From NCBI GenBank assembly GCA_038400315.1, contig CP151667.1, positions 4,599,174-4,663,173 of the forward strand: a DNA stretch of 64,000 nt. The letters are read 5' to 3'. A model generated the notes under the pieces. That model made no database searches. It was not told the DNA's origin and was given only the letters and a program-made list of their open reading frames with translations. The DNA comes from Isosphaeraceae bacterium EP7 (GTDB lineage Bacteria; Planctomycetota; Planctomycetia; Isosphaerales; Isosphaeraceae). Positions 42,880 through 56,437 of this stretch are shown one piece after another (the stretch's first letter is position 1; each line of letters opens with the position of its first letter). The position numbers and the translations under genes are program-made.

Positions 42880-43746
42880 TCAGACAGGCTTTCTGGTCGT
42901 CCGAACCTTCGGCTTGAGCGGCTGGCAGGTCGGGCAAAGATAGGTCGGACGCCCGATTAGCCCGGCGATCTTCCGCTTCTGGACCGCCTCGCCGCACCCG
43001 GGGCAGGGCTTCCCCTCCCGGCCGTACATGGCGTTGAGTGCGAGGAACCCCCCCTCCAGCCCCAGGACGGTTCGGTATCCCGCGTCGAAGCTCGACCCCT
43101 CCGCCGCGATCGCCTCGGACAGCACCGCACCGATCGCGGCATGGATCCGGCCGACCTCGGCCGCCTTCAGCGACGACGCAGGCCGCTCGGGATGGATCCG
43201 AGCCCGGAACAACGTCTCGTCGGCGTAGATATTGCCGATCCCCGCCAGCACCTTCTGATCCATCAGGGTCGGCTTGATCGGCCTGGAGGTCTTCGCCAGC
43301 CGGGCCAGCAGATCATCCGCCCCGATCGCCAGCGCATCGGGCCCGTGCGACCGTGCGAAGGCGGCCTCGGCAATTTCCTCGTTCGCGTACCAGGCGATCT
43401 TGCCCAGGCGTCGGGCGTCGCAGAACAGGACGGGAAGGTCCGACCCGACGATCCGGAATGTCAGGCGCACGTGTGCGGGTCGGTCGGCCGGAATAAGCCA
43501 AAAGCCTCCAGTCATACGGGGTTGGATGACGATCAATCCCCTGTCCTCGTCGAGCTCGATGACGACCCACTTGCCGCGTCGGAAGACTGATTTAACCAGG
43601 GACGTGCCGACTTGACGGGTGAATTCCTCGGAGTCGATCCCCTGGAGCATCGAGGGGTCGTGCACCTCGACCGCCCGGACTTCTCGACCCACCAGGGCAG
43701 GCCTGAGACCCCGGACCATCGTCTCGACTTCCGGCAACTCTGGCAT
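42880..43746 (-). CDS. mutM: Formamidopyrimidine-DNA glycosylase
   Basis: Removes oxidised purines such as 8-oxoguanine and nicks the abasic site. The N-terminal catalytic Pro and Glu are present (MPELPEVETMVRGL). 'RRGKWVVIEL' and 'IQPRMTGGFW' follow, then the helix-two-turn-helix with 'DQKVLAGIGNIYADETLFRA'. A C-terminal zinc finger has its four cysteines in 'PCPGCGEAV' and 'TYLCPTCQP'. The 288-residue length is normal. The start at 43746 has AAAGGAG 9 nt upstream; the much longer open frame on this strand is an artefact. It is divergent from the microcompartment operon across 207 bp. Confidence 0.95.
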   Translation of the reverse strand: MPELPEVETMVRGLRPALVGREVRAVEVHDPSMLQGIDSEEFTRQVGTSLVKSVFRRGKWVVIELDEDRGLIVIQPRMTGGFWLIPADRPAHVRLTFRIVGSDLPVLFCDARRLGKIAWYANEEIAEAAFARSHGPDALAIGADDLLARLAKTSRPIKPTLMDQKVLAGIGNIYADETLFRARIHPERPASSLKAAEVGRIHAAIGAVLSEAIAAEGSSFDAGYRTVLGLEGGFLALNAMYGREGKPCPGCGEAVQKRKIAGLIGRPTYLCPTCQPLKPKVRTTRKPV

Positions 43747-43881
43747 CGGTCCGGTCTCCTTTGGAAGGGATGAAACCCTCTCGAACAAGTCTAGCGGATC
43801 GACGAGGTCGGCGAATCGGGCCGACCGGGAGAATCCGCCTGATTGGTCTTGAGTGGTTTTGATGAAATCTTTTGAAGGTTC

Positions 43882-43910
43882 TTGACAGGCCCTGACGCCG
43901 GGTGCAGACT
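43882..43910 (+). promoter_or_regulatory. Candidate sigma70-type promoter of the microcompartment operon
   Basis: TTGACA (43882-43887), identical to the -35 consensus, is followed after 17 bp by CAGACT (43905-43910), a weak -10 box. It lies 44 bp before the DeoR gene in an AT-richer stretch. The sequence before it (TTTGATGAAATCTTTTGAAGG, 43858-43878) could include an operator, but no clear palindrome is seen. Confidence 0.4.
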
Positions 43911-43953
43911 CGACTTCTCGGATGGCGCCGACCGATACTCCCATTGGGACCAC

Positions 43954-44790
43954 ATGCTCGCCGAAACCCGCCGCAAAAGGCTGATGGAACTCATCACCAA
44001 CCAGGGCTTCGCCACCCTGGAAGAGCTGGTGCGCGGCCTCGGTGTCTCGGAGAGCACGGTCCGCCGCGACCTGGAGGCGCTCGACGCCGCCGGGGCAATA
44101 CGCCGGACGCACGGCGGTGCGGTCGTCCCGGGTGAGGGGCGGGCAATGCCTGCCCTGGAAGATCGGTCGACCACCGCACAGGACGAGAAACGGGCCATCG
44201 GCCAGGCCGCCGCCGCCCTGGTCGAGGACGGCGACACAATTCTGCTGGACGGCGGCACGACGACCCTGGAGGTGGCCCGCGCCCTGGCCCACAGGCCGGT
44301 GCAGGTCGTCACGAACAGCCTGCCCATCGCCCAGTTGTTGACCTCGAGCAAGGATATCGACCTGATCCTGGTCGGCGGTTACGTCTATCCCAGGACCGGC
44401 GTGGCCATGGGGCCGCTGGCCACAGCGACGCTTCAAGGCATCCGGGTGCGTCACGCCATCCTGGGCGCCGGAGGGATCGTGGCCGATGGGGTGTACAACT
44501 CCAACGGCCTGCTGGTCGAGACCGAACGCGAGATGATGGCCTGTGCCCAGGACGTGATGATCGTCGCCGATCGGTCGAAGTTCGGCCGGATCTCGCTGAG
44601 CTGGCTCTGCGGCTTCGACGCCATCCGCCTCCTGGTCACCGACCCGGGGCTGCCCGACGAGTATCGGTCGCTGCTGGAGGCCGCGGGCGTCCAGATCAAG
44701 ATCGCCACGCCGGACGTCGAGCCTGCCGACGTGGCCCGAGGCAACGGCCTGGCACGCGTCAATGGAACGGGAACGAGGGACCACGCATGA
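43954..44790 (+). CDS. DeoR-family transcriptional regulator of the microcompartment operon
   Basis: A 278-residue repressor-type regulator. The N-terminal DeoR helix-turn-helix reads '[25 protein letters not shown]' with recognition helix '[28 protein letters not shown]'. The C-terminal DeoRC sugar-phosphate sensor domain carries '[15 protein letters not shown]', '[12 protein letters not shown]' and '[16 protein letters not shown]'. DeoRC proteins respond to phosphorylated sugars, so the inducer may be a fuculose or rhamnulose phosphate. Its stop overlaps the pduL start by 4 nt (ATGA), making it the first gene of the operon. The start at 43954 is the conserved MLAETRR; the earlier frame is not protein-like. 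Confidence 0.92.
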
Positions 44791-45488
44791 GCACTCTGGC
44801 CTCGCGGGAGAATGTCGAGTCGATCGTCCGGGCGATCCTTCGCGACCGCCTCAAGACCTCGACGCCCGCCCCCTCGAACGGCGAAGCCCGCGCAACTGCC
44901 GCGACGGGCTACACGCCGAACCTGGTGGTGAACATCTCGGCGAGGCATTGCCACCTGAAGCAGGAGGATGTCGATGTCCTATTCGGCAAGGGCTATCAAC
45001 TGACCGAGCTGAAGCGGCTCTATCAGTCGACCGACTTCGCCGCCAATGAGACCGTCGCCGTCGTCGGGCCTCGTCAGCGAATGATCCCCGGCGTGCGGAT
45101 CCTCGGCCCCTGCCGTCCGTTCAGCCAGGTTGAGCTGTCCTTCACGGACTCGATCAGCCTGGGGATCGAGCTGCCGGTGAAGCTCTCGGGCGACGTCGAG
45201 GGGACCCCCGGCTGCCTGCTCATCGGGCCGGCCGGGAGCCTGGTTCTTCCCTTCGGCGTCATCCGCGCCGAGCGGCATGTCCACATGGGCCCGAAGGACG
45301 CCGAGTACTACGACGTGAAGGCCAAGGACCGGATGAGCCTGCGGATCCACTCGTCCTGCCCGACCACGCTGGAAGGGCTGCTCGTGCGGACCCACCCTGA
45401 CTGGAAGCTCGAGGTCCACATCGACACCGACGAGGCGAACTGCAGCGACCTGCCGAACGCCTCGAAGGTCGAGCTGATCAAGTCCTGA
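44787..45488 (+). CDS. pduL: Phosphate propanoyltransferase PduL with N-terminal encapsulation peptide
   Basis: Exchanges CoA for phosphate on an acyl group, recycling CoA inside the microcompartment. Here the acyl is probably lactyl (or propionyl). The 233 residues contain both PduL domains, with zinc ligands His54/His56 in '[10 protein letters not shown]' and His164/His166 in '[11 protein letters not shown]'. Residues 7-22 ([16 protein letters not shown]) form an amphipathic helix joined by a Ser/Pro/Gly/Ala linker, the layout of an encapsulation peptide that targets cargo to the shell. The ATG overlaps the DeoR stop. This enzyme is a core gene of PVM-type loci. Confidence 0.94.
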
Positions 45489-45585
45489 CCTGATCCGAAC
45501 CGATCAAACCGAGCCGAATCGGTCTCCAACGCGTCAATCTACCCCACTTGCAACCGCATACTGCACCGAACCGAAGGAGTGCCTG

Positions 45586-45924
45586 ATGGCCTCGTCCTCG
45601 CTTGAAGCGCTCGGCATGATCGAGACGAAGGGTTTCGTGGCGTTGGTCGAGGCCAGCGACGCGATGTTGAAGGCCGCCAACGTCGAGTTGATCGGCTGGG
45701 ACAAGATCGGCAGCGGCCTGGTCACGGCCTTCGTCGTGGGCGACGTCGCTGCGGTCAAGGCGGCCATCGACGCCGGTGCGGCCGCGGCCAGCCGGATCGG
45801 TGAGGTCGTCAGCGTCCAGGTCATCGCCCGCCCGCATGAAGACCTCGGCGGCGTGCTCACCTTCGCCAAGCCGGCGTCCCCCGCCGCGGCGATCACCACC
45901 AGCAACACCAAGGAAGGGGCCTGA
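45586..45924 (+). CDS. Microcompartment shell protein BMC-H (first of three)
   Basis: Hexameric shell tile with one BMC domain (PF00936), 112 residues. The canonical sequence '[37 protein letters not shown]' carries the standard KIGSG pore loop found in PduA/EutM types, so small polar metabolites are likely to pass. The C-terminal 25 residues (Pro/Ala/Thr-rich, ending TSNTKEGA) extend beyond the domain. An AAGGAG ribosome site lies a few nt upstream. The next BMC-H gene starts 3 bp after its stop. It is probably the major shell component. Confidence 0.95.
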
Positions 45925-45927
45925 GCC

Positions 45928-46248
45928 GTGGCGACCATCCAGCGAAGCGGCCAGCGTGCCCTCCCCGGCTCCAACGGCTCCGGCGAGGCCCTCGGCCTTG
46001 TTGAGACCAAGGGCCTCGTCGGCGTCATCGAGGCGACCGACGCCATGCTGAAGTCGGCCAATGTCACCCTGCTCGGCCGGGTGAGCATCGGCGCGGCCTT
46101 CATCACCACCCTCGTCCGCGGCGACGTCGGCAGCGTCCGCGCCGCCGTCGAGGCCGGAGCCGAGGCCGCCAGCCGCGTCGGCGAGCTGGTCAGCGCTCAC
46201 GTCATCCCACGCCCCTCCGAGGACGTCCTCAAGACGTTCCTCGGCTGA
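45928..46248 (+). CDS. Microcompartment shell protein BMC-H (second), with N-terminal extension
   Basis: Shell hexamer protein of 106 residues. It starts at GTG 45928 with AAGGAAGGGG 8 nt upstream. A 20-residue polar extension ([20 protein letters not shown]) precedes the BMC domain ('[30 protein letters not shown]'). The pore-loop position reads RVSIGAA instead of KIGSG, which should change pore lining and selectivity. The second half '[34 protein letters not shown]' is nearly identical to that of the third BMC-H, suggesting a duplication. 116 bp separate it from the next start. Confidence 0.94.
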
Positions 46249-46364
46249 GACGCCGCAGGATGGACCGGGTTGCGGGCCGCCCACCGAGGCGGCCCACTTC
46301 CCCGGCTCCGACACCCCTCGACCTCGACGCTCAAACGAATGCACACGACAGAAGGACGACCCCG

Positions 46365-46652
46365 ATGAACGGCTCGGCGCTGGGGCTCATTGAAACGCAG
46401 GGGCTGGTCTGCCTCATCTCCGCGATCGACGCGATGCTCAAGGCGGCCAGCGTCGACCTGGCCAGCACCGTCATCAAGCTCGACGGCGGCGTCGTCAGCG
46501 TCATGGTGCGCGGCGACGTCAGTAGCGTCCGCGCCGCCGTGGAAGCCGGCGCCGAGGCCGCCAGCCGCGTCGGCGACCTCAAGGCCGCACACGTCATTCC
46601 CAGGCCTGGCGCCGAGGTCCTCCGCACCTTCGGCGGGGGGACGGTCCGTTGA
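46365..46652 (+). CDS. Microcompartment shell protein BMC-H (third)
   Basis: Shell hexamer protein of 95 residues, the shortest of the three. The start at 46365 has GAAGGA 8 nt upstream; the open frame upstream is not protein-like. The BMC domain runs 'ALGLIETQGLVCLISAIDAMLKAASVDL' to 'SRVGDLKAAHVIPRPG'. The pore-loop position reads VIKLDGG, different from both neighbours and carrying an acidic residue. Its stop overlaps the TTG start of the kinase gene (TTGA). It is similar to the second BMC-H in the C-terminal half. Confidence 0.94.
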   Translation: MNGSALGLIETQGLVCLISAIDAMLKAASVDLASTVIKLDGGVVSVMVRGDVSSVRAAVEAGAEAASRVGDLKAAHVIPRPGAEVLRTFGGGTVR

Positions 46653-47848
46653 AGATCCTCGTCGCCAATCTCGGCAGCACCAGCTTCAAGTATCGCCTCT
46701 ACGACCTGACCGAAGGCGGCGACGAGATCCTCCTCGCCCGCGGCGCCGTCGAGCGCATCGGGTCCGATAACGCCAAGGTCTCGGTCAAATCGCCCAAGGG
46801 TGATGCCGAGGAAGTCCGACGCGTGGGCGACCACGGCGAGGCCCTCCGCCTCTGCATCGAGCAGCTCACCGATCCCAAGCTCGGCGTCCTCGGCTCGGCC
46901 GCGGACGTCGCCGCTATCGGGTTCAAGGCCGTTCACGCCAAGGGGATCACCGGCGTGCATCGGGTCGATGAGACGGTGCTCGTGGCGATGGAGGCTTTCT
47001 CCGACGTCGCACCCGCTCATAACCCGCCGTACATCAAGGCGATGCGGACCCTTCTGAGCCAATTCCCCGAGCTACCGTTGGTCGCCGCCTTCGAGACCGG
47101 TTTCCACCGGACGATGCCCGAGGCGATGCAGCGTTACGCTGTGCCCGAAGAGTGGTCCACCGAGCTGGGCATCCGCCGCTGGGGTTTCCACGGCGCCAGC
47201 CACCGTTACATCGCCGGCCGGATGGCCGAGCTGACCGGTCGCAATGACCTGAAGCTCATCTCGTGCCACCTTGGCGGCAGCTCGTCGCTCTGCGCCATCA
47301 AGGATGGCAAGTCGATGGGGTGCAGCCTGGGCATGAGCCCGCAGTCGGGCCTGCCGCAGAACAACCGGGTCGGCGACCTCGACGTTTTCGCCCTGCCTGC
47401 CATCCTCAAGGCGACCGGCCAGACCCTCGACCAGGTGCTCGACACGCTGGCCAATCGGTCGGGCCTCGAAGGCATCAGCGGTGTCGGTAACGACCTGCGC
47501 GACATCGAGAAGGCGGCCGAGGCGGGCGATGCCCGCGCCAGGCTGGCCCTCGACGTCTACATCGCCGCGGTCAGGCAGTACCTCGGCGGATTCATGGTCG
47601 CGCTTGGTGGCGTCGATGCGATCGTCTTCACCGGCGGCATCGGCGAGAACTCGACAGTCATCCGGTCGGGCGTCCTCCGCGACCTGGACTGGTTCGGCAT
47701 CACGATCGACCCGGCCAGCAATGCCGGCGGGCCGCCCGAGCGGAAGGTCTCCCTCGCCGGGGCTCGGGTTGATGTCTGGACCGTGCCGACCAATGAAGAG
47801 ATCGTCGTCGCCCGCCAGACCCGCGACATCCTGACGGCCAAGTCCTGA
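46649..47848 (+). CDS. ackA: Acetate/propionate kinase of the microcompartment
   Basis: Transfers phosphate from an acyl phosphate to ADP, making ATP at the end of the compartment pathway; the substrate here is probably lactyl or propionyl phosphate. The 399 residues match the family: 'ILVANLGSTSFKYRLYDL' start, 'VAAFETGFHRTMPEAMQRYAVP', 'GFHGASHRYIAGRM', 'SCHLGGSSSLCAIKDGKSM' and 'IVFTGGIGENSTVIR'. The TTG start overlaps the third BMC-H stop, so translation is likely coupled. No encapsulation helix is obvious. Confidence 0.93.
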   Translation: MKILVANLGSTSFKYRLYDLTEGGDEILLARGAVERIGSDNAKVSVKSPKGDAEEVRRVGDHGEALRLCIEQLTDPKLGVLGSAADVAAIGFKAVHAKGITGVHRVDETVLVAMEAFSDVAPAHNPPYIKAMRTLLSQFPELPLVAAFETGFHRTMPEAMQRYAVPEEWSTELGIRRWGFHGASHRYIAGRMAELTGRNDLKLISCHLGGSSSLCAIKDGKSMGCSLGMSPQSGLPQNNRVGDLDVFALPAILKATGQTLDQVLDTLANRSGLEGISGVGNDLRDIEKAAEAGDARARLALDVYIAAVRQYLGGFMVALGGVDAIVFTGGIGENSTVIRSGVLRDLDWFGITIDPASNAGGPPERKVSLAGARVDVWTVPTNEEIVVARQTRDILTAKS

Positions 47849-47879
47849 GGCGGCCCCGGTTCCACGACGGAGGTAGCCC

Positions 47880-48227
47880 ATGTTCGTCGCCCGAGTGACC
47901 GGCAGCCTGGTGGCCACGCAGAAGCTGCCCTCGATGACCGGCCACAAGCTCCTGCTGGTCGAGCCCTACCGTGTTGACGAGAAGACCCGCGATCGCCTGG
48001 TTCCCACCGGCCGTTCGTTCGTCGTGGTCGACACGCTGGGCGCGGGCCTCGACGAGATGGTGCTCGTCTGCCAGGGGTCGAGCGCCCGACTGACGCCCGA
48101 GACCGAGAAACTGCCGATCGACGCGGTGGTCATCGGCCTGATTGACACCGTGGATGTCGCCGGCAAGACGATCTTCTCGAATCGGTCGACCCAGGCCGAG
48201 CCGCTCGAGACAACGAACGCGAACTGA
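47880..48227 (+). CDS. Microcompartment vertex protein BMC-P (EutN/CcmL type, first of three)
   Basis: Pentameric protein that caps the shell vertices, 115 residues. The family sequence 'MFVARVTGSLVATQKLPSMTGHKLLLVEP' is followed by 'FVVVDTLGAGLDEMVLVCQGSSAR' and 'PIDAVVIGLIDTVDV'. It is the longest and most canonical of the three BMC-P genes here. It lies 31 bp after the kinase gene, with GGAGG 5 nt before the ATG. Confidence 0.95.
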   Translation: MFVARVTGSLVATQKLPSMTGHKLLLVEPYRVDEKTRDRLVPTGRSFVVVDTLGAGLDEMVLVCQGSSARLTPETEKLPIDAVVIGLIDTVDVAGKTIFSNRSTQAEPLETTNAN

Positions 48228-48281
48228 CGCCCAGATCGAACCTAACCAGCCAAGACGCGAGCCCGCGTTGGGGTGCCAGCC

Positions 48282-49715
48282 ATGCAAATGTCCGAGGACC
48301 TGATCCGAAGCCTGGTCCAGGAAGTCCTCTCTCAGATGGGTGGCAACGGCGCGGCCGCGACCAACGGCAACGGCGTCTCCCGCCCACCGAGCGGCCGCCT
48401 GGGCGTCCATTCCACGGTCGATGAGGCGGTCAAGGCCGCCGAGGCCGCCTTCCAGCAGTACCGGACCCGGCCCTACGCCGACCGACGTGCCGTGGTCGCG
48501 GCCATCAAGTCGATCTGCGTGAACCAAGCTGAAGAGCTCGGCAAGCTGGAGTTCGAGGAGACCGGCATCGGCCGCCTCGACCACAAGATCGCCAAGCTCC
48601 GAGACGCCATCCCCAGGGCTCCCGGCGTCGAGTTCCTGCACACGCTCAACGCGTCGGGCGACGATGGCCTGATGCTCACCGATTTCTCGCCTTTCGGCGT
48701 GATCGGTGCCACCACGCCGGTGACCCACAGCCTGCCGACCCTCGCCGGCAATGCGATCAGCATGCTCGCCGCGGGCAACACGGTGGTCTTCAACGCCCAC
48801 CCGTCGGGTGCCAAGATCGCCGCCGAGGGCGTGCGACGCTTCAACAAGGCGTTCATCGAAGCCATCGGCATCGAGAACCTGATCAACATCGTCGACCCGC
48901 CCACGCTGGAGACGGCCAACGACCTTTTCCAGCACCGAGGTGTCAAGGTCCTGGTCGTCACCGGCGGGCCCGCAGTGGCCCGCGCCGCCCTGGGCAACAA
49001 GCGACGCGCGATCGTGGCCGGCCCCGGCAATCCCCCTGTGGTCGTCGATTCCACGGCCGACCTGGACCTGGCCGCGAAGTCGATCATCACCGGCGCCGCG
49101 TTCGACAACAACCTGCTCTGCATCGGCGAGAAGCAAGTCTTTGCCGTCTCCGACATCTTCGACAAGCTGATGGAGGCGGTCGCCAAGCACGGCGGGTATC
49201 GCCTGAACTCGGGGCAGATCGACGCCCTGACCCAGAAGGCGTTCATCGCGGGCAAGGATGGCGCCCTGCACGTCAACAAGGACCTGGTCGGGCAGGGGCC
49301 CGTCGTCCTCGGCAAGTATGCCGGAGTCTCGGTCCCGGCCGAGGCCCAGATCCTCTTCGGCGAGACCGGCGACGACCACCCGTTCGTCGATCATGAGCAG
49401 ATGATGCCGTTCATCCCTTTCGTCCGCGTCTCCAACGTGGACAGGGCCCTGGCCCTGGCCAAGTCGAGCGAGCACGGTTACGGCCACACCGCCGTCCTGC
49501 ACTCACGCGACCTGAACGTCATGAGCCGCATGGGCAAGCTGATGGATTGCACCATCTTTGTCGTCAACGGGCCGAGCACCGCGGGCCTCGGGCTCGGCGG
49601 CGAAGGGTTCCTGTCATTCTCTATCGCCGGGCCGACCGGCGAGGGCGTGACGACACCACTGACCTTCTGCCGCCAACGCCGGACGACCATCGCTGGCGGG
49701 ATGCGGTTCGTTTGA
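48282..49715 (+). CDS. CoA-acylating aldehyde dehydrogenase (PduP-like) with encapsulation peptide
   Basis: Converts an aldehyde (lactaldehyde or propionaldehyde) plus CoA and NAD+ to acyl-CoA; the signature core enzyme of catabolic microcompartments. The 477 residues contain the catalytic Cys280 in 'FDNNLLCIGEKQVF', the NAD region 'VIGATTPVTHSLPT' and 'VTGGPAVARAALGN'. Residues 4-17 (SEDLIRSLVQEVLS) form an amphipathic helix followed by a Gly/Asn/Ala linker, the usual encapsulation peptide. I take the ATG at 48282; GTG 48273 and ATG 48288 are alternatives close by. It is followed by the second BMC-P gene. Confidence 0.94.
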   Translation: MQMSEDLIRSLVQEVLSQMGGNGAAATNGNGVSRPPSGRLGVHSTVDEAVKAAEAAFQQYRTRPYADRRAVVAAIKSICVNQAEELGKLEFEETGIGRLDHKIAKLRDAIPRAPGVEFLHTLNASGDDGLMLTDFSPFGVIGATTPVTHSLPTLAGNAISMLAAGNTVVFNAHPSGAKIAAEGVRRFNKAFIEAIGIENLINIVDPPTLETANDLFQHRGVKVLVVTGGPAVARAALGNKRRAIVAGPGNPPVVVDSTADLDLAAKSIITGAAFDNNLLCIGEKQVFAVSDIFDKLMEAVAKHGGYRLNSGQIDALTQKAFIAGKDGALHVNKDLVGQGPVVLGKYAGVSVPAEAQILFGETGDDHPFVDHEQMMPFIPFVRVSNVDRALALAKSSEHGYGHTAVLHSRDLNVMSRMGKLMDCTIFVVNGPSTAGLGLGGEGFLSFSIAGPTGEGVTTPLTFCRQRRTTIAGGMRFV

Positions 49716-49781
49716 TCGGCTGATTTCAGGCGAGCAGGCCGAGTCCCTCGGCCTGCTCAAGCGTTGACCCGGAGCCCATCG

Positions 49782-50036
49782 ATGCAAGTCGGCCGCGTGC
49801 TGGGATCGGCGACCTCGACCGTCAAGCACCCCTCGTTCGAGGGGGAGCGGATGCTCGTCGTCCAGTTCCTCACCGGCGACGGCAAGCCCGAAGGCGAGCC
49901 GGTCCTGGCCTTCGACCGGATGGGCGCGGGCCGGGGCGATCTGGTGATGCTGACCAGTGACGGGGCGATCTTGAGTGAGCTGCTCGGGCGGAATACGCCC
50001 GGCCGCTGGAGCGTGATGGGGCTTCCCGACCGATGA
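49782..50036 (+). CDS. Microcompartment vertex protein BMC-P (second)
   Basis: Pentameric vertex protein, 84 residues. The EutN/CcmL pattern is 'MQVGRVLGSATSTVKHPSFEGERMLVVQFL', then 'VLAFDRMGAGRGDLVMLTSDGAILSELLG'. The start at 49782 has GGAG 7 nt upstream. The stop overlaps the next gene (ATGA at 50033-50036). It lacks the longer C-terminal part of the first BMC-P. Confidence 0.93.
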   Translation: MQVGRVLGSATSTVKHPSFEGERMLVVQFLTGDGKPEGEPVLAFDRMGAGRGDLVMLTSDGAILSELLGRNTPGRWSVMGLPDR

Positions 50037-50884
50037 CCAACCGCCAACAGCCCGGACAGTCCGAAGTGGAGGCCGCCGTCCGCGCGGTGCTCGCCGGCAT
50101 GGGTCTGCTGGGCGGTCGCCCTCGCGCCTCGGAATTGGCGACCGTCACCGCAGCGGGAGTCGAGCCTTACGCCGGCCGCCTCTTCGGTGCCCGTCAGGTC
50201 GAATCGCTCTCGGCCGAGACCCGCGAGATTCAGCTAGCACCGGCCACCATCATCACGCCACTCGCCCGAGACCTGCTCAAGCGACTCGGGATCACCGTGA
50301 CGCGGGTCGCAAGGCTCAAGGTCGAGCGGCCCGGCGAGTGGGGCTTCGGCGTCGAGGTCGAATCGGGCGTCACCGAATCAATTCGACGCACCTGGCTGGA
50401 TTCGCCCGTGCTCTGGACCGACCTCGGTCCCGATGTCGACGAGGTCGCCCGCTGGATCTCCGACGGGTCGGATCGTGGAGCGTTGGTGCTGACGCCTCAG
50501 GCCTCGGTAGCCCACTGGCGGGCGAGCCAGGTCGCCGAGGTCCGGGCCGCGACGGTCAATGATGGTGACTCCGTGGCCCGTGCCATCCGGTTCCTGGGCG
50601 CCAACCTGCTGGTGATCGAGCCGGCTGGCAGAACCATTCATGAGTTGAAGTCTGTGGCCGATGCGTTCCGCGCCGGGGGGGCGCCGAGGCGGCCCGACTG
50701 GCTGGCCGGGACTGTCGGACTTGGGAGCTTGGGCCATGCGGATCGCCGAGGTGATCGGACGGGTGACGCTCTCCAGGCAGCATCCCAGCTTGCACGGGGC
50801 CCGGTTCCTGCTGGCCTTGCCGATGACTTACGAGGGCCTGATGGACGACTCGCCCTCACGCGGGGAGGAGGTCATCGTGTATGA
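50033..50884 (+). CDS. Microcompartment-associated protein with encapsulation-like helix and RpiB-like domain; 3' end overlaps the next gene
   Basis: A 283-residue protein of unknown role within the operon. Residues 9-24 (QSEVEAAVRAVLAGMG) look like an encapsulation helix. A motif 'ATIITPLARDLLKRLGITV' (72-89) resembles one found in other microcompartment-linked proteins such as cobalamin adenosyltransferases. Residues about 104-222 resemble ribose-5-phosphate isomerase B/LacAB ('DRGALVLTPQASVAHWRASQVAEVRAA' and 'AIRFLGANLLVIEPAG'), but without its usual catalytic Cys/His pattern. From residue 235 on, the frame overlaps the next BMC-P gene by 149 bp and looks like shadow sequence. The natural stop may have been lost, or a frameshift is present. 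Function not known. Confidence 0.7.
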   Translation: MTNRQQPGQSEVEAAVRAVLAGMGLLGGRPRASELATVTAAGVEPYAGRLFGARQVESLSAETREIQLAPATIITPLARDLLKRLGITVTRVARLKVERPGEWGFGVEVESGVTESIRRTWLDSPVLWTDLGPDVDEVARWISDGSDRGALVLTPQASVAHWRASQVAEVRAATVNDGDSVARAIRFLGANLLVIEPAGRTIHELKSVADAFRAGGAPRRPDWLAGTVGLGSLGHADRRGDRTGDALQAASQLARGPVPAGLADDLRGPDGRLALTRGGGHRV

Positions 50885-51014
50885 CGACCTCGGTGCCCGG
50901 CCCGGCGATCTGATCGGCCTGAGCGAGGGGGGCGAGGCGGCCAAGCCGTTCGGTCGCCGAAAGGTGCCGATCGACGCCTATAACGCATGCCTGCTCGACG
51001 CGATTTCAATCTGA
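50736..51014 (+). CDS. Microcompartment vertex protein BMC-P (third)
   Basis: Pentameric vertex protein, 92 residues: 'MRIAEVIGRVTLSRQHPSLHGARFLLALPM', then 'VIVYDDLGARPGDLIGLSEGGEAAKPF' and 'KVPIDAYNACLLDAISI'. The ATG at 50736 has GGGAG about 7-8 nt upstream. The gene starts inside the preceding open frame, overlapping it by 149 bp. It is clearly the real gene in that overlap because the whole EutN/CcmL fold is readable. Confidence 0.93.
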   Translation: MRIAEVIGRVTLSRQHPSLHGARFLLALPMTYEGLMDDSPSRGEEVIVYDDLGARPGDLIGLSEGGEAAKPFGRRKVPIDAYNACLLDAISI

Positions 51015-51103
51015 CACGATCCGCGATAGAGACAAAAGCAACGCCGTCGCGACGCGAGTCGCCGGTCAATCGACGCTCAGAGACACTCGAAAGGGCACGA
51101 CCC

Positions 51104-52078
51104 ATGGCCGGCGAATCTTCGATCATGAGCGAATGGAAGCTGCGGGAGCAGATGTGCGAGATCGGCAGGCGCGTGTACGCCAAGGGCTTCGCCGCCGCCA
51201 ATGACGGTAACATCAGCATGAAGCTGAGCGACGACCGCGTCCTCTGCACGCCGACTCGCATCAGCAAGGGCTTCATGAAGCCCGACGACCTCTGCATCGT
51301 CGACATGGACGGCAAGCAGATCTCGGGTAAGCGCAAGCGTTCCAGCGAGATCCTGCTGCATCTGACCGTGATGAAGACCCGGCCCGACGTGAAGGCCTGT
51401 GTGCACTGCCACCCGCCCCACGCCACCGCCTTCGCCGTGGCCCACGAGCCGATTCCCAAGTGCACGATGCCGGAGTTCGAGGTCTTCCTCGGCGAAGTTC
51501 CGATCGCCCCTTACGAGACCCCTGGTTCGCAGAACTTCGCCGACACGATCATCCCGTACGCCAAGGATACCGACACGATCCTGCTGGCCAACCACGGGAC
51601 GATCACCTACGGCGGCGACCTGGAAGACGCCTACTTCAAGACCGAGATCATCGACGCCTACTGCCGGATCCTGCTGCTGACCCGTCAGCTCGGCCGGGTG
51701 AACTACTACTCGGACGAGAAGGCGGCCGAGCTGATCAAGCTCAAGCCGCTGCTCGGCATCGCCGACCCCCGCTTGACCCGTGGCCTCGAAAATTGCGACC
51801 TCTGCGGCAACAGCCTGTTCCGCGAGGGGTACAGCGACTTCAAGCCCGAGCCCAAGGCCTTCATCCCGGCCAAATTCCAGAGCCAGCAGAAGCCCGAGGG
51901 CGACTGCGGATGCCACGGCGGCGGTTCGGTTGAGAAGGCCAAGACCGCGGCGAATCTCTCCGATCAGGACATGGACACCCTCGTCAGGCTCATCTCCGAC
52001 CAGGTGATGAAGGCCATCGAGGGGGGCTCGGGTTCGGGCAACGCGAATCGTGCCCGCTCGGGCGCCTCGTCGAACTGA
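51104..52078 (+). CDS. Class II aldolase (fuculose/rhamnulose-1-phosphate type) with C-terminal encapsulation peptide
   Basis: Cleaves a deoxy-ketose 1-phosphate to dihydroxyacetone phosphate and lactaldehyde, the aldehyde fed to the compartment. The aldolase/adducin core has catalytic Glu82 in 'RSSEILLH', zinc ligands His101 and His103 in 'CVHCHPPHA', and His164 in 'LANHGTITYG'. After the core come Cys pairs 'CDLCGN' (231-236) and 'CGCHGG' (268-273), then a linker. An amphipathic helix at 286-306 (SDQDMDTLVRLISDQVMKAIE) matches a C-terminal encapsulation peptide, followed by a Gly/Ser/Asn tail. The start at 51104 has AAGGG 9 nt upstream; 51125 is an alternative. 324 residues. Confidence 0.92.
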   Translation: MAGESSIMSEWKLREQMCEIGRRVYAKGFAAANDGNISMKLSDDRVLCTPTRISKGFMKPDDLCIVDMDGKQISGKRKRSSEILLHLTVMKTRPDVKACVHCHPPHATAFAVAHEPIPKCTMPEFEVFLGEVPIAPYETPGSQNFADTIIPYAKDTDTILLANHGTITYGGDLEDAYFKTEIIDAYCRILLLTRQLGRVNYYSDEKAAELIKLKPLLGIADPRLTRGLENCDLCGNSLFREGYSDFKPEPKAFIPAKFQSQQKPEGDCGCHGGGSVEKAKTAANLSDQDMDTLVRLISDQVMKAIEGGSGSGNANRARSGASSN

Positions 52079-52154
52079 AGGTGGTCTGTCGTCGGGACCG
52101 GGCCAGTCCAGTGAGCGAACCAACCCGCGAGAGTCGCGGAGCGAGAGTGACCGG

Positions 52155-53252
52155 ATGAACGTCAGCATTATCGGTGGCGGAGGGCTGGTCGGCTCGTGCG
52201 CCGCATACGCCCTGCAGTGCGGCGGACTGGCCAGCGGGCTCGACCTGATCGACCTGAACGCGGACCTATGCCGCGGTCAGGCCCTCGACCTGCTCCACGG
52301 GGCCTCGATTGCGGCCGACCAGCGCATCCGCGCCGTCGGGTACGAGGCGATCCCGTCGAGCGACATCGTCGTCATCACCGCGGGCCTGCGACGCAAGCCC
52401 GATGAGAGCCGGCTCGACCTGATCAATCGTAACGTCGAGCTGTTCCTGGGCATCCTCGCCCAGGTCAAGGCCGCCGGATTGAAGAAGGACGCGAAGGTCC
52501 TGGTCGTCTCCAACCCGGTCGACGTCCTCACGTACCTGGCCACCAAGCAGCTCGGTCTGCCGTCGTCACAGGTCATCGGCCTGGGGACGCAGCTCGACTC
52601 GGCTAGGTTCCGCAGCCTGATCGCCGAAGCCCTCAAGCTGCCAGCCACTCAGGTCACCGCGACGATCCTGGGCGAGCACGGCGACAGCATGGTCCCGATC
52701 TGGTCGGCCGCGCAGGCGGCGGGCCTTCCCCTGGAAAAGTTCCCGGGCTGGAACGCCGGGTCGGCCGACGCCCTGTTCGCCAAGACCAAGGGGAGCGGCG
52801 CCGAGGTCATCAAGCTGAAGGGCGGGGCAGGCTTCGCCGTCGGCCTGGCCATCCGCGAGGTGGTCGACGCGATCATCCTCGACCGCAAGCGAATCCTGCC
52901 GGTCGCCTCTCTGGTCGACGGGGTTTATGGGCTGCGTGACGTCTGCATCTCGGTTCCCTCGGTCATCGGCCGCGCCGGCGTCGAGAGCCAGATCGAGATC
53001 GAGCTCTGGCCGAAAGAACTGTCGGCCTTGCAGCACTCGGGCCGGGTGTTGCGCGAGACGATCGACCTTGTCCTGAGCAAGAACCCCAACGCGACCAAGG
53101 GGGCGCCCGCTTCGGTACCGGTCCAGGTCCTGCGGCCCACGATCGTCGGCCACCCGGTCAGGGTGACGACGGGTGGCGGCGGATCTGGCAACGGCGGCGG
53201 ATCGTCCCGGGTCACGATCTCAGGGCAGCACGGCGGGGGTCGCAATGGATAA
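52155..53252 (+). CDS. Lactate/malate dehydrogenase-like NAD-dependent enzyme of the microcompartment
   Basis: NAD-dependent 2-hydroxyacid (or lactaldehyde) oxidoreductase, 365 residues. The Rossmann motif is 'VSIIGGGGLVGS' (3-14). The LDH/MDH active site shows Arg80 and Arg86 in 'GLRRKPDESR', Asp148 and Arg151 in 'QLDSARFR', and His175 in 'ILGEHGDSMVP'. In PVM loci this enzyme is thought to recycle NADH made by the aldehyde dehydrogenase. A 30-residue Gly/Ser-rich tail (VTTGGGGSGNGGGSSRVTIS and beyond) is not part of the fold and may interact with the shell. The stop lies 8 nt inside the next gene. The ATG at 52155 has only a weak ribosome site (CCGGA). Confidence 0.9.
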   Translation: MNVSIIGGGGLVGSCAAYALQCGGLASGLDLIDLNADLCRGQALDLLHGASIAADQRIRAVGYEAIPSSDIVVITAGLRRKPDESRLDLINRNVELFLGILAQVKAAGLKKDAKVLVVSNPVDVLTYLATKQLGLPSSQVIGLGTQLDSARFRSLIAEALKLPATQVTATILGEHGDSMVPIWSAAQAAGLPLEKFPGWNAGSADALFAKTKGSGAEVIKLKGGAGFAVGLAIREVVDAIILDRKRILPVASLVDGVYGLRDVCISVPSVIGRAGVESQIEIELWPKELSALQHSGRVLRETIDLVLSKNPNATKGAPASVPVQVLRPTIVGHPVRVTTGGGGSGNGGGSSRVTISGQHGGGRNG

Positions 53253-54507
53253 GTCGCTCGACCGCAAGCTCGCCGCAATCCGGGCCGACTCGAACTCGCG
53301 CGAATTCATCCTCGCCGATGCCAAGGACGCCGACATGGCGTTCGGCATCGGCGCGCCGGGGCTTTCGCCCGAGTCCCACCCGGGCGAGGTCCGTCACAAG
53401 ACCCTCGCCCAGTATCGAGCCCAGATCCGAGAGATCACGCAGCAAGGTCTGGTCGACATCATGCTGATGTCCGCCAGTACCAATCATGCGTTGACGATCG
53501 AGGAACGGATCTTCGAGAACTCGCACATCACGCCCGCCATCCGGGCCAATGACACGACCGACGTGCATATCGCCCGTGGCTCGCATTACGCGGAAAGCGC
53601 CTCCAGGCCGTTCCGCAGCGCCAGCCTCGACCATGCCCAGTGCGGTCACCTCGACTGCACGCCCGAGGAACGATCGATCGGGGCGAATCTCGGCCTGTAC
53701 TCTGTCACGTTCAATAACGATCTGGAACGCGACCTCGAGACGCTCGAAGCCTTCCACGTCTTCCGCGCCGAGGCCGAACGCAAGGGGTTCCGGTACTTCC
53801 TTGAGGTCTTCGACCCGAATCTTCCGGGCGTCGTCGCCCCCGAGATCCTGGGCGGTTACATCAACGACATGATTGCGAGGATGCTCGCGGGCGTCGCCCC
53901 CGCCGGCAGGCCGCAGTTCCTCAAGATGGTCTATCACGGCCCTTCCGCGATGGAAGAGCTGTTCCGCTATGACCCGAATCTGGTCATCGGCATCCTCGGC
54001 GGCTCGGCCGGCACTACGCGCGATGCCTTCCAACTCCTGGCCGACGCCCAGAAGTATGGGGCAAAGGTCGCGCTTTTCGGCCGCAAGATCAACGGGGCCG
54101 AGAACCAACTCGCATTCGTCCAGTTCCTCCGCCTGATCGTCGACGGCGTCATCGGGCCGGTCGACGCGGTGAAGGCCTACCATGCCGTGCTGGGCAAGCT
54201 CGGCATCAAGCCGCACCGCAATCTGGAAGACGACCTTCAGGTGCAGAGTCTGGCGATGAGCTACGGCGGGACGTCGACCAGCGTCACCGTCCCGCCCAAG
54301 CCGGCGCCCGCTCCGGCAACAGCCCCCGCGCCCAAACTGGTGGCGACCGTCGTTCCCGCCGCGAAGTCGAATGGTCAGGTCCATGCGAATGGGAATGGCA
54401 ACTCGTCGGCCTTCCCGACTCATGCCGACGGTCTGCCCGACTTCGGCAAGATGGACGTGACGCAGCGGCTTGCCTATCACCGGCAGCGGCTGGGCCTCGG
54501 GAACTGA
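53245..54507 (+). CDS. Conserved-looking microcompartment protein of unknown function, TIM-barrel aldolase-like
   Basis: A 420-residue protein ending the operon, starting at ATG 53245 inside the dehydrogenase stop region (8-nt overlap). Residues 1-335 look like an alpha/beta barrel: 'LVDIMLMSASTNHALTIEER', 'GFRYFLEVFDPN', 'QFLKMVYHGPSAMEEL', 'LVIGILGGSAGTTRDAFQLL' and 'YGAKVALFGRKINGAENQLAF'. This pattern recalls class I aldolases of the LacD/DeoC type, but I cannot name a Schiff-base lysine with confidence. A Pro/Ala/Asn-rich linker (about 350-395) leads to a short conserved-looking end 'KMDVTQRLAYHRQRLGL'. Membership in the operon suggests a second aldol step or an accessory role. Function unknown. 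Confidence 0.8.
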   Translation: MDKSLDRKLAAIRADSNSREFILADAKDADMAFGIGAPGLSPESHPGEVRHKTLAQYRAQIREITQQGLVDIMLMSASTNHALTIEERIFENSHITPAIRANDTTDVHIARGSHYAESASRPFRSASLDHAQCGHLDCTPEERSIGANLGLYSVTFNNDLERDLETLEAFHVFRAEAERKGFRYFLEVFDPNLPGVVAPEILGGYINDMIARMLAGVAPAGRPQFLKMVYHGPSAMEELFRYDPNLVIGILGGSAGTTRDAFQLLADAQKYGAKVALFGRKINGAENQLAFVQFLRLIVDGVIGPVDAVKAYHAVLGKLGIKPHRNLEDDLQVQSLAMSYGGTSTSVTVPPKPAPAPATAPAPKLVATVVPAAKSNGQVHANGNGNSSAFPTHADGLPDFGKMDVTQRLAYHRQRLGLGN

Positions 54508-54535: not shown

Positions 54536-56437
54536 TCATTGGCCTTCACGCATCCAGACCTCGGCAGCCTGGGCGGCACTCGTCCGGGTCCCGTGGGGCA
54601 TTAACTGCCATTGAGGCTGCCCGCCGTCGGCCGCCGTGATTCGTTGGATCCACTCGTCGATGGCCGACAGCGACTGGCTGACCATCGCCGCCCGGCGGAT
54701 CATGTTCCCAGGGATCGGCTGCGCGAACATCACGAAGTAATAGGGCGGCGCGACGAAGTTGATCTTCCCGAGATAAGTCCGCATCGCTTTCTCGAGCTTG
54801 ATCGGGTCTCCAGGAAAGGCCAGGCGGAAGTCGGTAAGTTGCTGATCTGGAGTCCGCGTGGAGAGAGGCTCGAGCTTGGACATGAGCTTCAGATAGCTCC
54901 AGAATTCGTCCTTGCGCTTATTCGCCAGGTAATGGACCAGCGCCCACGACAGGGCGTAGTCCGTCGGGCTCAGGTCGACGCTGCGGACGATCTGCGGGAT
55001 CAATGGCCTGGTCGGATCGCGTGGAGGAGGCGGCTGGCCCGACCCGTTGTACTGGAGCGCGGCCTGGTCGTAGAGGTCGTGGATCGTGGCCATGTGAAGC
55101 GCGTTGATCTTGCCCAGGCCGGCCCAGTCCACGGTATTCTTCTTCGTGGTCGTCGCCGGTGAACAGAACTCGGCGAAGCCCTCGATCAACCAGAGCGGCC
55201 AGGGGGCCAAGCGGGGTTGTACGCCGACATTCGAGAGGATCTGATGAGTTCCCTCGTGGGCGACCGTTTGCGGCTTGCGCAGGGCGAGCGCCGGATTATC
55301 CCCGCCCTGGTCGGCGGTCTCGTAGAAGAAGATCCGGTTCGAGTCGATCTCGTAATAGGCCTGGACGTCGGCGGCAACCTCGCGGTGGGCCCTGAATTCG
55401 CGTTCGGTCGCGAAGATGACGGCCACCAGCGGGAATTCGGTCTCATGCACCTCGAGCCCGCGATCTTTCAGGCCCGCGGTGAGCTTGCTGTACAGGTTCT
55501 CGAGCAGTGTCCGGCTTCCCTTGGCGAAGTAGTCGGAGCACATGGCGAAGATCAGGTAATGTTTGGACTCATAGATTCGATAGCCTCGATATGGGCCGTT
55601 CTCGAGGCGTTGTCTCATTTCGGCCAAGGTCAGCGGCACGAACGGTTCTTCGGTAGAGATTAAGCGAGAAGGATAGCCAAGCTGACCGTCGGGCAAGAGC
55701 GTGATGACCCGGTCGCCGTTCCGGCCGTGCTCGCGAACGACGACTTCTCGACCCGTCTCGTCATGGACCTTGTAGCGAGGCTCTGAGGCGACCGGCGCGG
55801 CGAGTTCCATCGCCGCGGTCGGATTCGAGGGCGTCGGAGCCTCAACATGTCCGGGCGGAGCAGGCGTCGCCGGTTGAATCGTCGCGGCCTGCGGATCTGA
55901 TGAACTCGCTGGCACCTGAGATCCGGCCGAGACGGTCGAAACCTGCTCGATGGGAACAGCATCCGCCTCGACAATGCCAAGCGGCGGAGTCGAATGGAGA
56001 TTGGCCACCTCAGCGAGCTTGACGGAGACCGGACAGGCAATCCCGGGCAAGGGATTTCTGGCCTCGATGACCCTCGGGTCGAGCTCGGGAGGAATGACAC
56101 CCTTCCAGGCGGCAACTCCCATGGCACCTGCGGTCAAGAAAAGAGCCAGGGCGGTGAGTGACCTCACGGCTCGAGGAGTTTCAGACTTGATCGGAGGGTT
56201 GAGTCGAAAGTTGGATGAGGGAATCTCGACGGCGATGTCGAGCGAAGACGCAACCGAGCGAGTCATCGGCTCAGGAAACGGCCCTGCCTCCCCGGGGTCG
56301 GTCCCGAAGATCGAGGCGACTGATTCAGCGAGTGAAATCTGGCAGCGTGGGCAAGCTCTGGAGGCGGCGCGTTCGGGGCTGGAAGTGCGGATCTTCGCCC
56401 CACATCCAAGACAAATCACCAGAACGTGTTCCATCAC
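54536..56437 (-). CDS. DUF1570 membrane-anchored protein with zinc ribbon and HExxH metalloprotease-like motif
   Basis: A 633-residue protein. It starts with a zinc-ribbon-like pair (CLGCGAKIRTSS then ACPRC), then a transmembrane helix (about 94-112, 'LTALALFLTAGAMGVAAW'), then a Pro/Ser/Thr-rich linker. The DUF1570 domain (about 290-610) contains the HExxH-type motif 'VAHEGTHQIL' and the downstream Glu of 'LIEGFAEFCSP', consistent with a gluzincin-like metallopeptidase facing outward. Substrate unknown. The ATG at 56437 has AGGGG 6 nt upstream. It is convergent with the microcompartment operon (28 bp between stops) and is not part of it. Confidence 0.87.
   Translation of the reverse strand: MMEHVLVICLGCGAKIRTSSPERAASRACPRCQISLAESVASIFGTDPGEAGPFPEPMTRSVASSLDIAVEIPSSNFRLNPPIKSETPRAVRSLTALALFLTAGAMGVAAWKGVIPPELDPRVIEARNPLPGIACPVSVKLAEVANLHSTPPLGIVEADAVPIEQVSTVSAGSQVPASSSDPQAATIQPATPAPPGHVEAPTPSNPTAAMELAAPVASEPRYKVHDETGREVVVREHGRNGDRVITLLPDGQLGYPSRLISTEEPFVPLTLAEMRQRLENGPYRGYRIYESKHYLIFAMCSDYFAKGSRTLLENLYSKLTAGLKDRGLEVHETEFPLVAVIFATEREFRAHREVAADVQAYYEIDSNRIFFYETADQGGDNPALALRKPQTVAHEGTHQILSNVGVQPRLAPWPLWLIEGFAEFCSPATTTKKNTVDWAGLGKINALHMATIHDLYDQAALQYNGSGQPPPPRDPTRPLIPQIVRSVDLSPTDYALSWALVHYLANKRKDEFWSYLKLMSKLEPLSTRTPDQQLTDFRLAFPGDPIKLEKAMRTYLGKINFVAPPYYFVMFAQPIPGNMIRRAAMVSQSLSAIDEWIQRITAADGGQPQWQLMPHGTRTSAAQAAEVWMREGQ

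Follow-up and report, generated by a model that had tools for sequence, protein, structure and literature searches.

Which reactions does the microcompartment operon of Isosphaeraceae bacterium EP7 carry out, and what do its genes without a recognised family contribute? The operon occupies 43954-54507 on the plus strand of a 64,000-nucleotide stretch of the genome (contig CP151667.1), called the window below, and was delimited by open reading frame (ORF) calling, Pfam and NCBIfam searches, and inspection of starts and stops. By its gene content, the operon is of a type already known, the Planctomycetes and Verrucomicrobia microcompartment (PVM), because its order is shared with surveyed relatives and PVM loci are described in PMC4207490 and PMC11958385 (both cited from excerpts). 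The PVM is the published planctomycete route for lactaldehyde from fucose and rhamnose. What is new is the reading of three genes: X420, the last gene of the operon; a dehydrogenase of the lactate/malate dehydrogenase (LDH/MDH) family; and orfK. We give a probability of about 0.65 to a PVM operon in which X420 is a class I aldolase with a tail, an MDH-type enzyme reoxidises NADH and orfK is a non-catalytic internal protein.

Gene content and order of the operon

ORF calling, Pfam and NCBIfam searches, and start and stop checks recovered every gene named in an initial annotation of the window, including two genes without a family at E 0.001, orfK (50033-50884) and X420 (53245-54507). The operon start was moved from a TTG at 43882 to the ATG at 43954, which fits the DeoR family better. 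The genes are:

43954-44790, plus strand: DeoR-family regulator (PvmA-like), ATG start; PF00455 156 bits, PF08220 65 bits.
44787-45488, plus strand: PduL phosphotransacylase (PvmB-like) with a possible N-terminal encapsulation peptide; PF06130 230 bits.
45586-45924, plus strand: bacterial microcompartment (BMC) shell protein BMC-H 1; PF00936 96 bits.
45928-46248, plus strand: BMC-H shell protein 2, GTG start; PF00936 94 bits.
46365-46652, plus strand: BMC-H shell protein 3, a third copy as in Isosphaeraceae-like loci; PF00936 82 bits.
46649-47848, plus strand: acetate/propionate-family kinase (AckA), TTG start; TIGR00016 338 bits, above cut-off.
47880-48227, plus strand: BMC-P shell protein 1; PF03319 96 bits.
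48273-49715, plus strand: CoA-acylating aldehyde dehydrogenase (AldDH) with an encapsulation-peptide-like N-terminus; NF011927 567 bits, start GTG 48273 or ATG 48282.
49782-50036, plus strand: BMC-P shell protein 2; PF03319 72 bits.
50033-50884, plus strand: orfK, an N-terminal helix, a EutQ/PduM/TIGR02536-like stretch and a degenerate RpiB/LacB domain, assigned from a family profile and an AlphaFold2 (AF2) model.
50736-51014, plus strand: BMC-P shell protein 3, ATG at 50736; PF03319 69 bits.
51104-52078, plus strand: class II aldolase, the PVM signature enzyme, with a C-terminal tail; PF00596 168 bits, start ATG 51104 or 51125.
52155-53252, plus strand: LDH/MDH-family dehydrogenase with malate-type specificity residues (R80, A225); PF00056/PF02866.
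53245-54507, plus strand: X420, a class I aldolase-like barrel with a conserved C-terminal tail (residues about 398-420), assigned from AF2 and Foldseek.

The short overlaps previously noted between genes are real and number four: DeoR/PduL (4 nt), BMC-H3/AckA (4 nt, only if AckA starts at the TTG), BMC-P2/orfK (4 nt) and LDH-like/X420 (8 nt). A fifth, long overlap of 149 nt between orfK and BMC-P3 (50736-50884) was absent from the initial annotation. BMC-P3 begins within orfK in a different frame, and a similar C-terminal extension occurs in the orfK of loci L019 and L021.

The PVM assignment is supported by gene content, gene order, the locus survey and the published descriptions (excerpts of PMC4207490 and PMC11958385). 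The signature class II aldolase scores 168 bits against a PF00596 cut-off of 22.2, and CoA-acylating AldDH, PduL, acetate kinase, LDH/MDH-family enzyme and DeoR regulator occur together. PF00936 and PF03319 searches found BMC-H and BMC-P proteins and no BMC-T; PF00936 matched only the three BMC-H genes of the operon in the whole 7.2-Mb, five-contig genome, and the operon is its only BMC-H locus. There is no sugar kinase in the operon, the kinase there being of the acetate family. That BMC-T and a sugar kinase are missing was considered as the mark of a new type and rejected, since the excerpts of PMC4207490 list neither for PVM. The missing sugar kinase is no sign of a new type because a rhamnulokinase-like gene sits elsewhere in the genome.

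X420 relatives were fetched from GTDB species genomes as the best 80 of at least 557 matches, in which distant copies are under-sampled; named relatives near the top of these 80 are Singulisphaera sp. GP187, Paludisphaera soli, Aquisphaera insulae and Tautonia sociabilis. Both BMC-P3 and X420 are carried by 50 of the 80 loci. PduL, AldDH and X420 occur together in 39 loci; the class II aldolase is present in 38 of these and the LDH-like gene in 34, and 38 keep the order of the window when missing genes are allowed. Both enzymes are present in 34 of the 38 order-keeping loci, and the exception to the order is L076. Chance grouping is excluded because 50 of 80 loci pair BMC-P3 with X420 and only one of the 39 departs from the order. 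Of the 39 largely complete loci, 12 give at least three BMC-H matches. In L022, L024 and other loci outside the Isosphaeraceae-like group the gap between BMC-P1 and AldDH is larger and may hold a gene missing in the window.

This comparison with related loci, which the initial annotation had proposed, shows that at the level of the PVM type the gene order was in substance already described; a literature search found no paper on the order for this genus specifically. PVM loci in PMC4207490 include the class II aldolase, DeoR, acetate kinase and an LDH/MDH gene (excerpts). The Planctopirus limnophila cluster pvmABDEGHIJKLMNO is induced by rhamnose (PMC11958385, excerpts), and metagenome-assembled genomes (MAGs) of Verrucomicrobiota are reported to carry BMC-H and BMC-P genes in triplicate (PMC8857213, excerpts).

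X420 is predicted to be a class I aldolase

An AF2 model of X420 was built from a 40-row alignment (A1, which combines the window with 39 X420 loci hand-picked for spread from the 80) and is a TIM barrel with pLDDT 79 and pTM 0.73. Foldseek and a second aligner gave MJ0400, LsrF, archaeal fructose-bisphosphate aldolase (FBPA), LacD and sulfohexulose-1-phosphate aldolase as the nearest folds among the entries listed. The MJ0400 match has a Foldseek E of 4.9e-9 and a VIA Z of 22.4, and the top eleven entries span Z 20.9-22.4. Comparison with 2qji (Z 22.4, rmsd 3.2 over 254 residues) shows that the model is a (beta/alpha)8 barrel which aligns with class I aldolases. Residues K227, D25, E187, G252-G253 and G279-R280 are invariant in A1 and in all 17 rows of a joint alignment (A4) of the window, 6 planctomycete-type loci and 10 plasmid relatives, and K227 lies on predicted strand 6 (E226-228). 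A profile of A4 ranked LsrF (E 0.01) and MJ0400 (0.034) first among PDB sequences. Because the fold matches, the plasmid relatives stand in a sugar-gene context and K227, D25, E187 and the GG and GR pairs are invariant, X420 fits a predicted class I (Schiff-base) ketose-phosphate aldolase.

NCBIfam holds no family for the window protein, and the A1 profile found no aldolase among PDB sequences, its one match being chance-like. Membership of PF01791 (DeoC/LacD) was tried as a candidate and rejected, with no match at E 10 in 40 members or 4 plasmid relatives. In the titles and abstract openings of the literature searched, no class I aldolase is named in PVM loci.

Relatives of X420 with 41-53% identity are encoded on plasmids in 47 records, which come from Rhizobium, Shinella, Agrobacterium, Sinorhizobium, Vibrio and others. 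Where an annotation is listed they are hypothetical proteins, except for a partial match in Sagittula that is annotated as a monooxygenase. Three relatives were scanned against NCBIfam: the Vibrio protein matched NF005556 (1.3e-5, ADH synthase) and NF040816 (6e-5, class I FBP aldolase), the Shinella protein matched weakly (0.0017, 0.047) and the Agrobacterium protein had no match. Gene context was read for 10 of the 47 records. A sugar-type kinase (FGGY, PfkB or other) is near the relative in nine regions, and in the tenth, from Lichenicola, DhaK-DhaL lies directly downstream. Sugar ABC importers are present in 8 of the 10 regions and an annotated GlpD-like oxidase in 4. The aldolase-like family on these proteobacterial plasmids (L145-L154) includes at least two operon types, one with an FGGY kinase and a GlpD-like oxidase, the other with other sugar kinases and ABC importers.

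The C-terminal tail of X420

Planctomycete X420 proteins have a variable linker followed by a conserved end peptide, P-D/N-F-x-x-M-T/S. A tail profile that was derived from the window together with 39 of the same 80 loci matched 79 of the 80 planctomycete copies and none of the 10 plasmid relatives; the single miss, L074, has an early stop. The tail has some features of an encapsulation signal, a short conserved peptide after a variable linker with none in the relatives outside compartments. Judged from the sequences, a cargo signal acquired together with the compartment would be distributed in this way; the tail may also serve in oligomerisation or in other binding.

Both shuffle tests rejected the tail as a textbook amphipathic encapsulation peptide, on a noisy yardstick that the AldDH and PduL N-termini pass in the best-11-mer test only and the class II aldolase tail in the chosen-20-mer test only. 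The best 11-mer of the AldDH N-terminus was reached by 0.1% of shuffles and its chosen 18-mer by 12%; the corresponding values for PduL are 2.8% and 33%. For the class II aldolase tail, 2.4% of shuffles reached the chosen 20-mer and 16% the best 11-mer.

The dehydrogenase has malate-type specificity residues

The initial annotation called the dehydrogenase LDH-like, a term that holds as a family name and fails for specificity, since all 67 rows of an alignment carry malate-type residues at the specificity positions. These rows include the window, leave out L001-L003 and L084 (the window itself), and are not deduplicated, some loci having been fetched twice (L012 and L085 share a C-terminus). 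Arg (R80) occupies the column of LDH Gln102 in 67/67 rows, and the column of Thr246 (A225 in the window) holds Ala (59) or Ser (8); we take the LDH numbers Q102 and T246 to apply to these columns. R151, D148 and H175 are kept in 67/67 rows. Arg102 with Ala or Ser246 are malate dehydrogenase determinants, and R151, D148 and H175 are catalytic residues; R80 and R151 are presumably the substrate-carboxylate positions. By these determinants all 67 rows would be LDH-like MDHs. The score against NF004863 is just below the curated cut-off (282.4 of 283 bits).

The residues suggest that lactaldehyde is an unlikely substrate, because the site has two carboxylate-binding arginines and lactaldehyde has no carboxylate; oxaloacetate and malate would be the preferred pair. 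The idea that the operon enzyme is the cell's only MDH was rejected, as another at C1:854 kb scores above the curated cut-off. This other MDH also has Arg at the Gln102 column. At about 53100-53252, the Isosphaeraceae-like MDH-type proteins end in a Gly/Ser-rich tail with RVTxxG repeats, a feature that the remaining loci in the 40 displayed rows lack.

orfK has a degenerate RpiB-like domain

The orfK alignment (A2) comprises the window and 34 of 36 hand-picked candidates, L018 and L077 having been dropped for wrong frames. PF02502 (LacAB_rpiB) matches 25 of the 35 members at E up to 1, the best at 1.8e-11; the window protein alone reaches an E of only 0.22. Among the matches listed for the orfK profile against PDB sequences, 21 of 22 are of RpiB/LacB type, from E 3.1e-8 (LacB, 4lfk) to 0.011. 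In an AF2 model, a helix at the N-terminus accompanies a domain resembling RpiB, and a structure search with this model matches RpiB structures. Sequence profiles and structure search together identify the RpiB fold in this family. Other matches at E up to 1 are TIGR02536 in 14/35 members (best 7.7e-7), PduM in 5/35 (0.011) and EutQ in 3/35 (0.052); the EutQ-like stretch of the window protein is residues 70-93. The CG(T/S)GIG active-site loop is not kept in the profile consensus compared with 4lfk, 6fxs and 6fxw and is replaced, and two shuffle tests found no significant amphipathicity in the N-terminal helix. We read orfK as a non-catalytic internal protein. A short form in L055, L070 and L071 has only the RpiB-like half, without the N-terminal helix and the EutQ-like stretch.

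Possible pathway genes outside the operon

One possible pathway partner lies 3.4 kb past the operon:

57861-59378, minus strand: FucI-like isomerase, outside the operon; PF02952 63 bits, above cut-off.

This protein scores only 34 of 775 bits against NF008220, a curated model for fucose isomerase, and no match to it was found at E 1e-5 in the ORFs of 103 related loci, many of them too short to reach this far. A rhamnulokinase-like gene is located elsewhere in the genome at 0.10 Mb (TIGR02627, 468 bits, cut-off 528). The fucose or rhamnose substrate of the window operon is inferred from the PVM papers. Between the operon and the FucI-like gene, Pfam identifies a minus-strand DUF1570 protein (54536-56437). 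Upstream of the operon is a minus-strand ORF (42880-43800), the second half of which, we presume, resembles formamidopyrimidine-DNA glycosylase.

Distribution of X420 and alternative explanations

X420 matches were found in 33 of 392 genomes sampled from the phylum; two (G229 and G175, below 21 bits and with stops) were dropped, leaving 31. In the window's class, X420 is present in 27 and BMC-H in 39 of the 40 sampled genomes. A Fisher test of X420/BMC-H co-occurrence (2.7e-15) ignores kinship and is not to be leaned on. One or more shell, AldDH or PduL genes accompany X420 in 50 of its 80 loci, and in 13 others it adjoins only the class II aldolase or the LDH-like gene. Of the remainder, 12 loci are clearly unlinked and 5 could not be judged. 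Locus L076 is from a record titled as a Phycisphaerae MAG; there X420 stands after BMC-P3, and no class II aldolase or LDH-like gene was found in the 21 kb covered; this is one case, and the genes may lie elsewhere in that genome.

The operon could be an ordinary PVM locus with X420 as a housekeeping or regulatory TIM-barrel protein parked at its end and not cargo, which we consider unlikely. This would suit the 13 of 31 X420 genomes in which the gene is not within 10 kb of a listed BMC-H, the 12 unlinked loci (the neighbours of six of them gave no hint of a substrate), the non-amphipathic tail and the one genome with X420 and without BMC-H. It accounts poorly for the short distance, at most 10 kb, between X420 and a listed BMC-H gene in at least 18 of the 31 genomes, for the place of X420 at the end of the operon, where it overlaps the preceding gene by 8 nt, and for the absence of the tail from 10/10 relatives outside planctomycetes; the presence of BMC-H in 30 of the 31 genomes speaks only weakly against it, since nearly all sampled genomes of the class have BMC-H. 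X420 might instead be an LsrF-like thiolase or another C-C lyase or transferase of class I fold, with a substrate such as a CoA compound or a 2-oxo acid. The fold of LsrF is one of the nearest (Z 21.5) and LsrF is the best profile match, and MJ0400, the nearest fold of all, is an ADH synthase; the relatives of X420 adjoin sugar importers and kinases, however, and the Lichenicola gene directly before DhaK-DhaL points to a dihydroxyacetone (phosphate) product, which makes this option improbable. The dehydrogenase is published as supplying the alcohol dehydrogenase function (PMC4207490, excerpts), and reduction of lactaldehyde to 1,2-propanediol in this core role is proposed in print, with propanediol named as the product in a review (PMC12078418, excerpts). 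We regard this role as doubtful here. The invariant R80 and R151, presumably at substrate-carboxylate positions, fit a 2-oxo-dicarboxylate, and a separate MDH in the genome means that the operon enzyme need not be the tricarboxylic acid cycle enzyme.

Several observations weigh against an operon with X420 as a packaged class I aldolase and an MDH-type partner. X420 has no Pfam family: its 40 members gave only chance-like matches at E 10, none of them to PF01791, and 0/4 plasmid relatives matched Pfam at this threshold. K8, K27 and K281 are as invariant as K227 in A4, and K227 is one residue off the LsrF catalytic lysine, at the position that we assume for it, in the sole, weak alignment that covers the strand. 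No link was obtained by hhalign between X420 and five planctomycete LacD-like proteins. BMC-H occurs without X420 in 12 of 39 genomes of the class, one genome has X420 and no BMC-H, and the tail is kept in 12/12 X420 copies that do not adjoin shell genes. The tail has a hydrophobic moment of 0.11 against a shuffle mean of 0.25, with no row of 40 at a shuffle fraction below 0.05, and 70% of shuffles reach its best 11-mer. Five of 39 loci lack the MDH-type gene, and RhaA (PF06134) was not found in the genome, other rhamnose isomerase types not having been searched.

Proposed pathway and its implications

Homology identifies the BMC-H and BMC-P proteins as shell components, the DeoR protein as the regulator, and PduL, AldDH, AckA, the aldolase and the LDH/MDH-family enzyme as the pathway. 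By analogy with the P. limnophila system, the ketose-1-phosphates of L-fucose and L-rhamnose would be cleaved to dihydroxyacetone phosphate and L-lactaldehyde, and L-lactaldehyde would pass through lactyl-CoA and lactyl phosphate to lactate via AldDH, PduL and AckA. X420 would be a class I (Schiff-base) ketose-phosphate aldolase, taken from sugar catabolism outside compartments, that gained a lineage-specific C-terminal tail and acts alongside or in place of the class II aldolase. NADH would more likely be reoxidised by the MDH-type enzyme acting on a 2-oxo-dicarboxylate (oxaloacetate to malate) than through lactaldehyde reduction. The orfK product would be a non-catalytic internal protein of the compartment.

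More tentatively, many planctomycete PVMs may contain a second, unrelated aldehyde-forming enzyme from a class I aldolase family unknown to Pfam, which was captured from sugar catabolism through the gain of a new kind of non-amphipathic docking tail, can take the place of the class II enzyme (L076) and widens the compartment to more than one ketose phosphate, with reducing power leaving as malate and not as propanediol. If X420 is a packaged aldolase, the PVM substrate range and the concept of the signature enzyme need revising, and its tail would be a cargo signal of a new kind. Should the "LDH" be an MDH, the redox balance proposed so far (lactaldehyde to propanediol) is wrong or incomplete.

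Comparison with known systems

The operon dehydrogenase resembles LDH-like malate dehydrogenases in having Arg at the Q102 column and Ala or Ser at the T246 column and differs from them in scoring below the NF004863 cut-off; the cellular MDH of the same genome has Met where the operon enzyme has E84. X420 shares with the DhnA/LsrF/archaeal FBPA/LacD class I aldolases a fold over about 250 residues (Z 20-22) and an invariant lysine on predicted strand 6, whereas identity is 12-15% in most top aldolase rows, the relatives match the family models weakly and X420 has a C-terminal extension of about 80 residues including the linker. Sugar phosphate utilisation (SPU) microcompartments likewise pair a class I aldolase with a protein of RpiB fold in one BMC locus (PMC4207490, excerpts), but the SPU aldolase is DeoC-type and X420 has no PF01791 match, and the RpiB domain of orfK lacks the CG(T/S)GIG loop. 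Also close is the P. limnophila PVM, which has DeoR, shell and rhamnose/fucose pathway genes in one cluster (PMC11958385, excerpts). It differs in having two BMC-H genes (pvmD and pvmE, if the letters are assigned correctly) in place of the three in the window, and its named cluster ends at pvmO, whereas in the window X420 follows the LDH-like gene.

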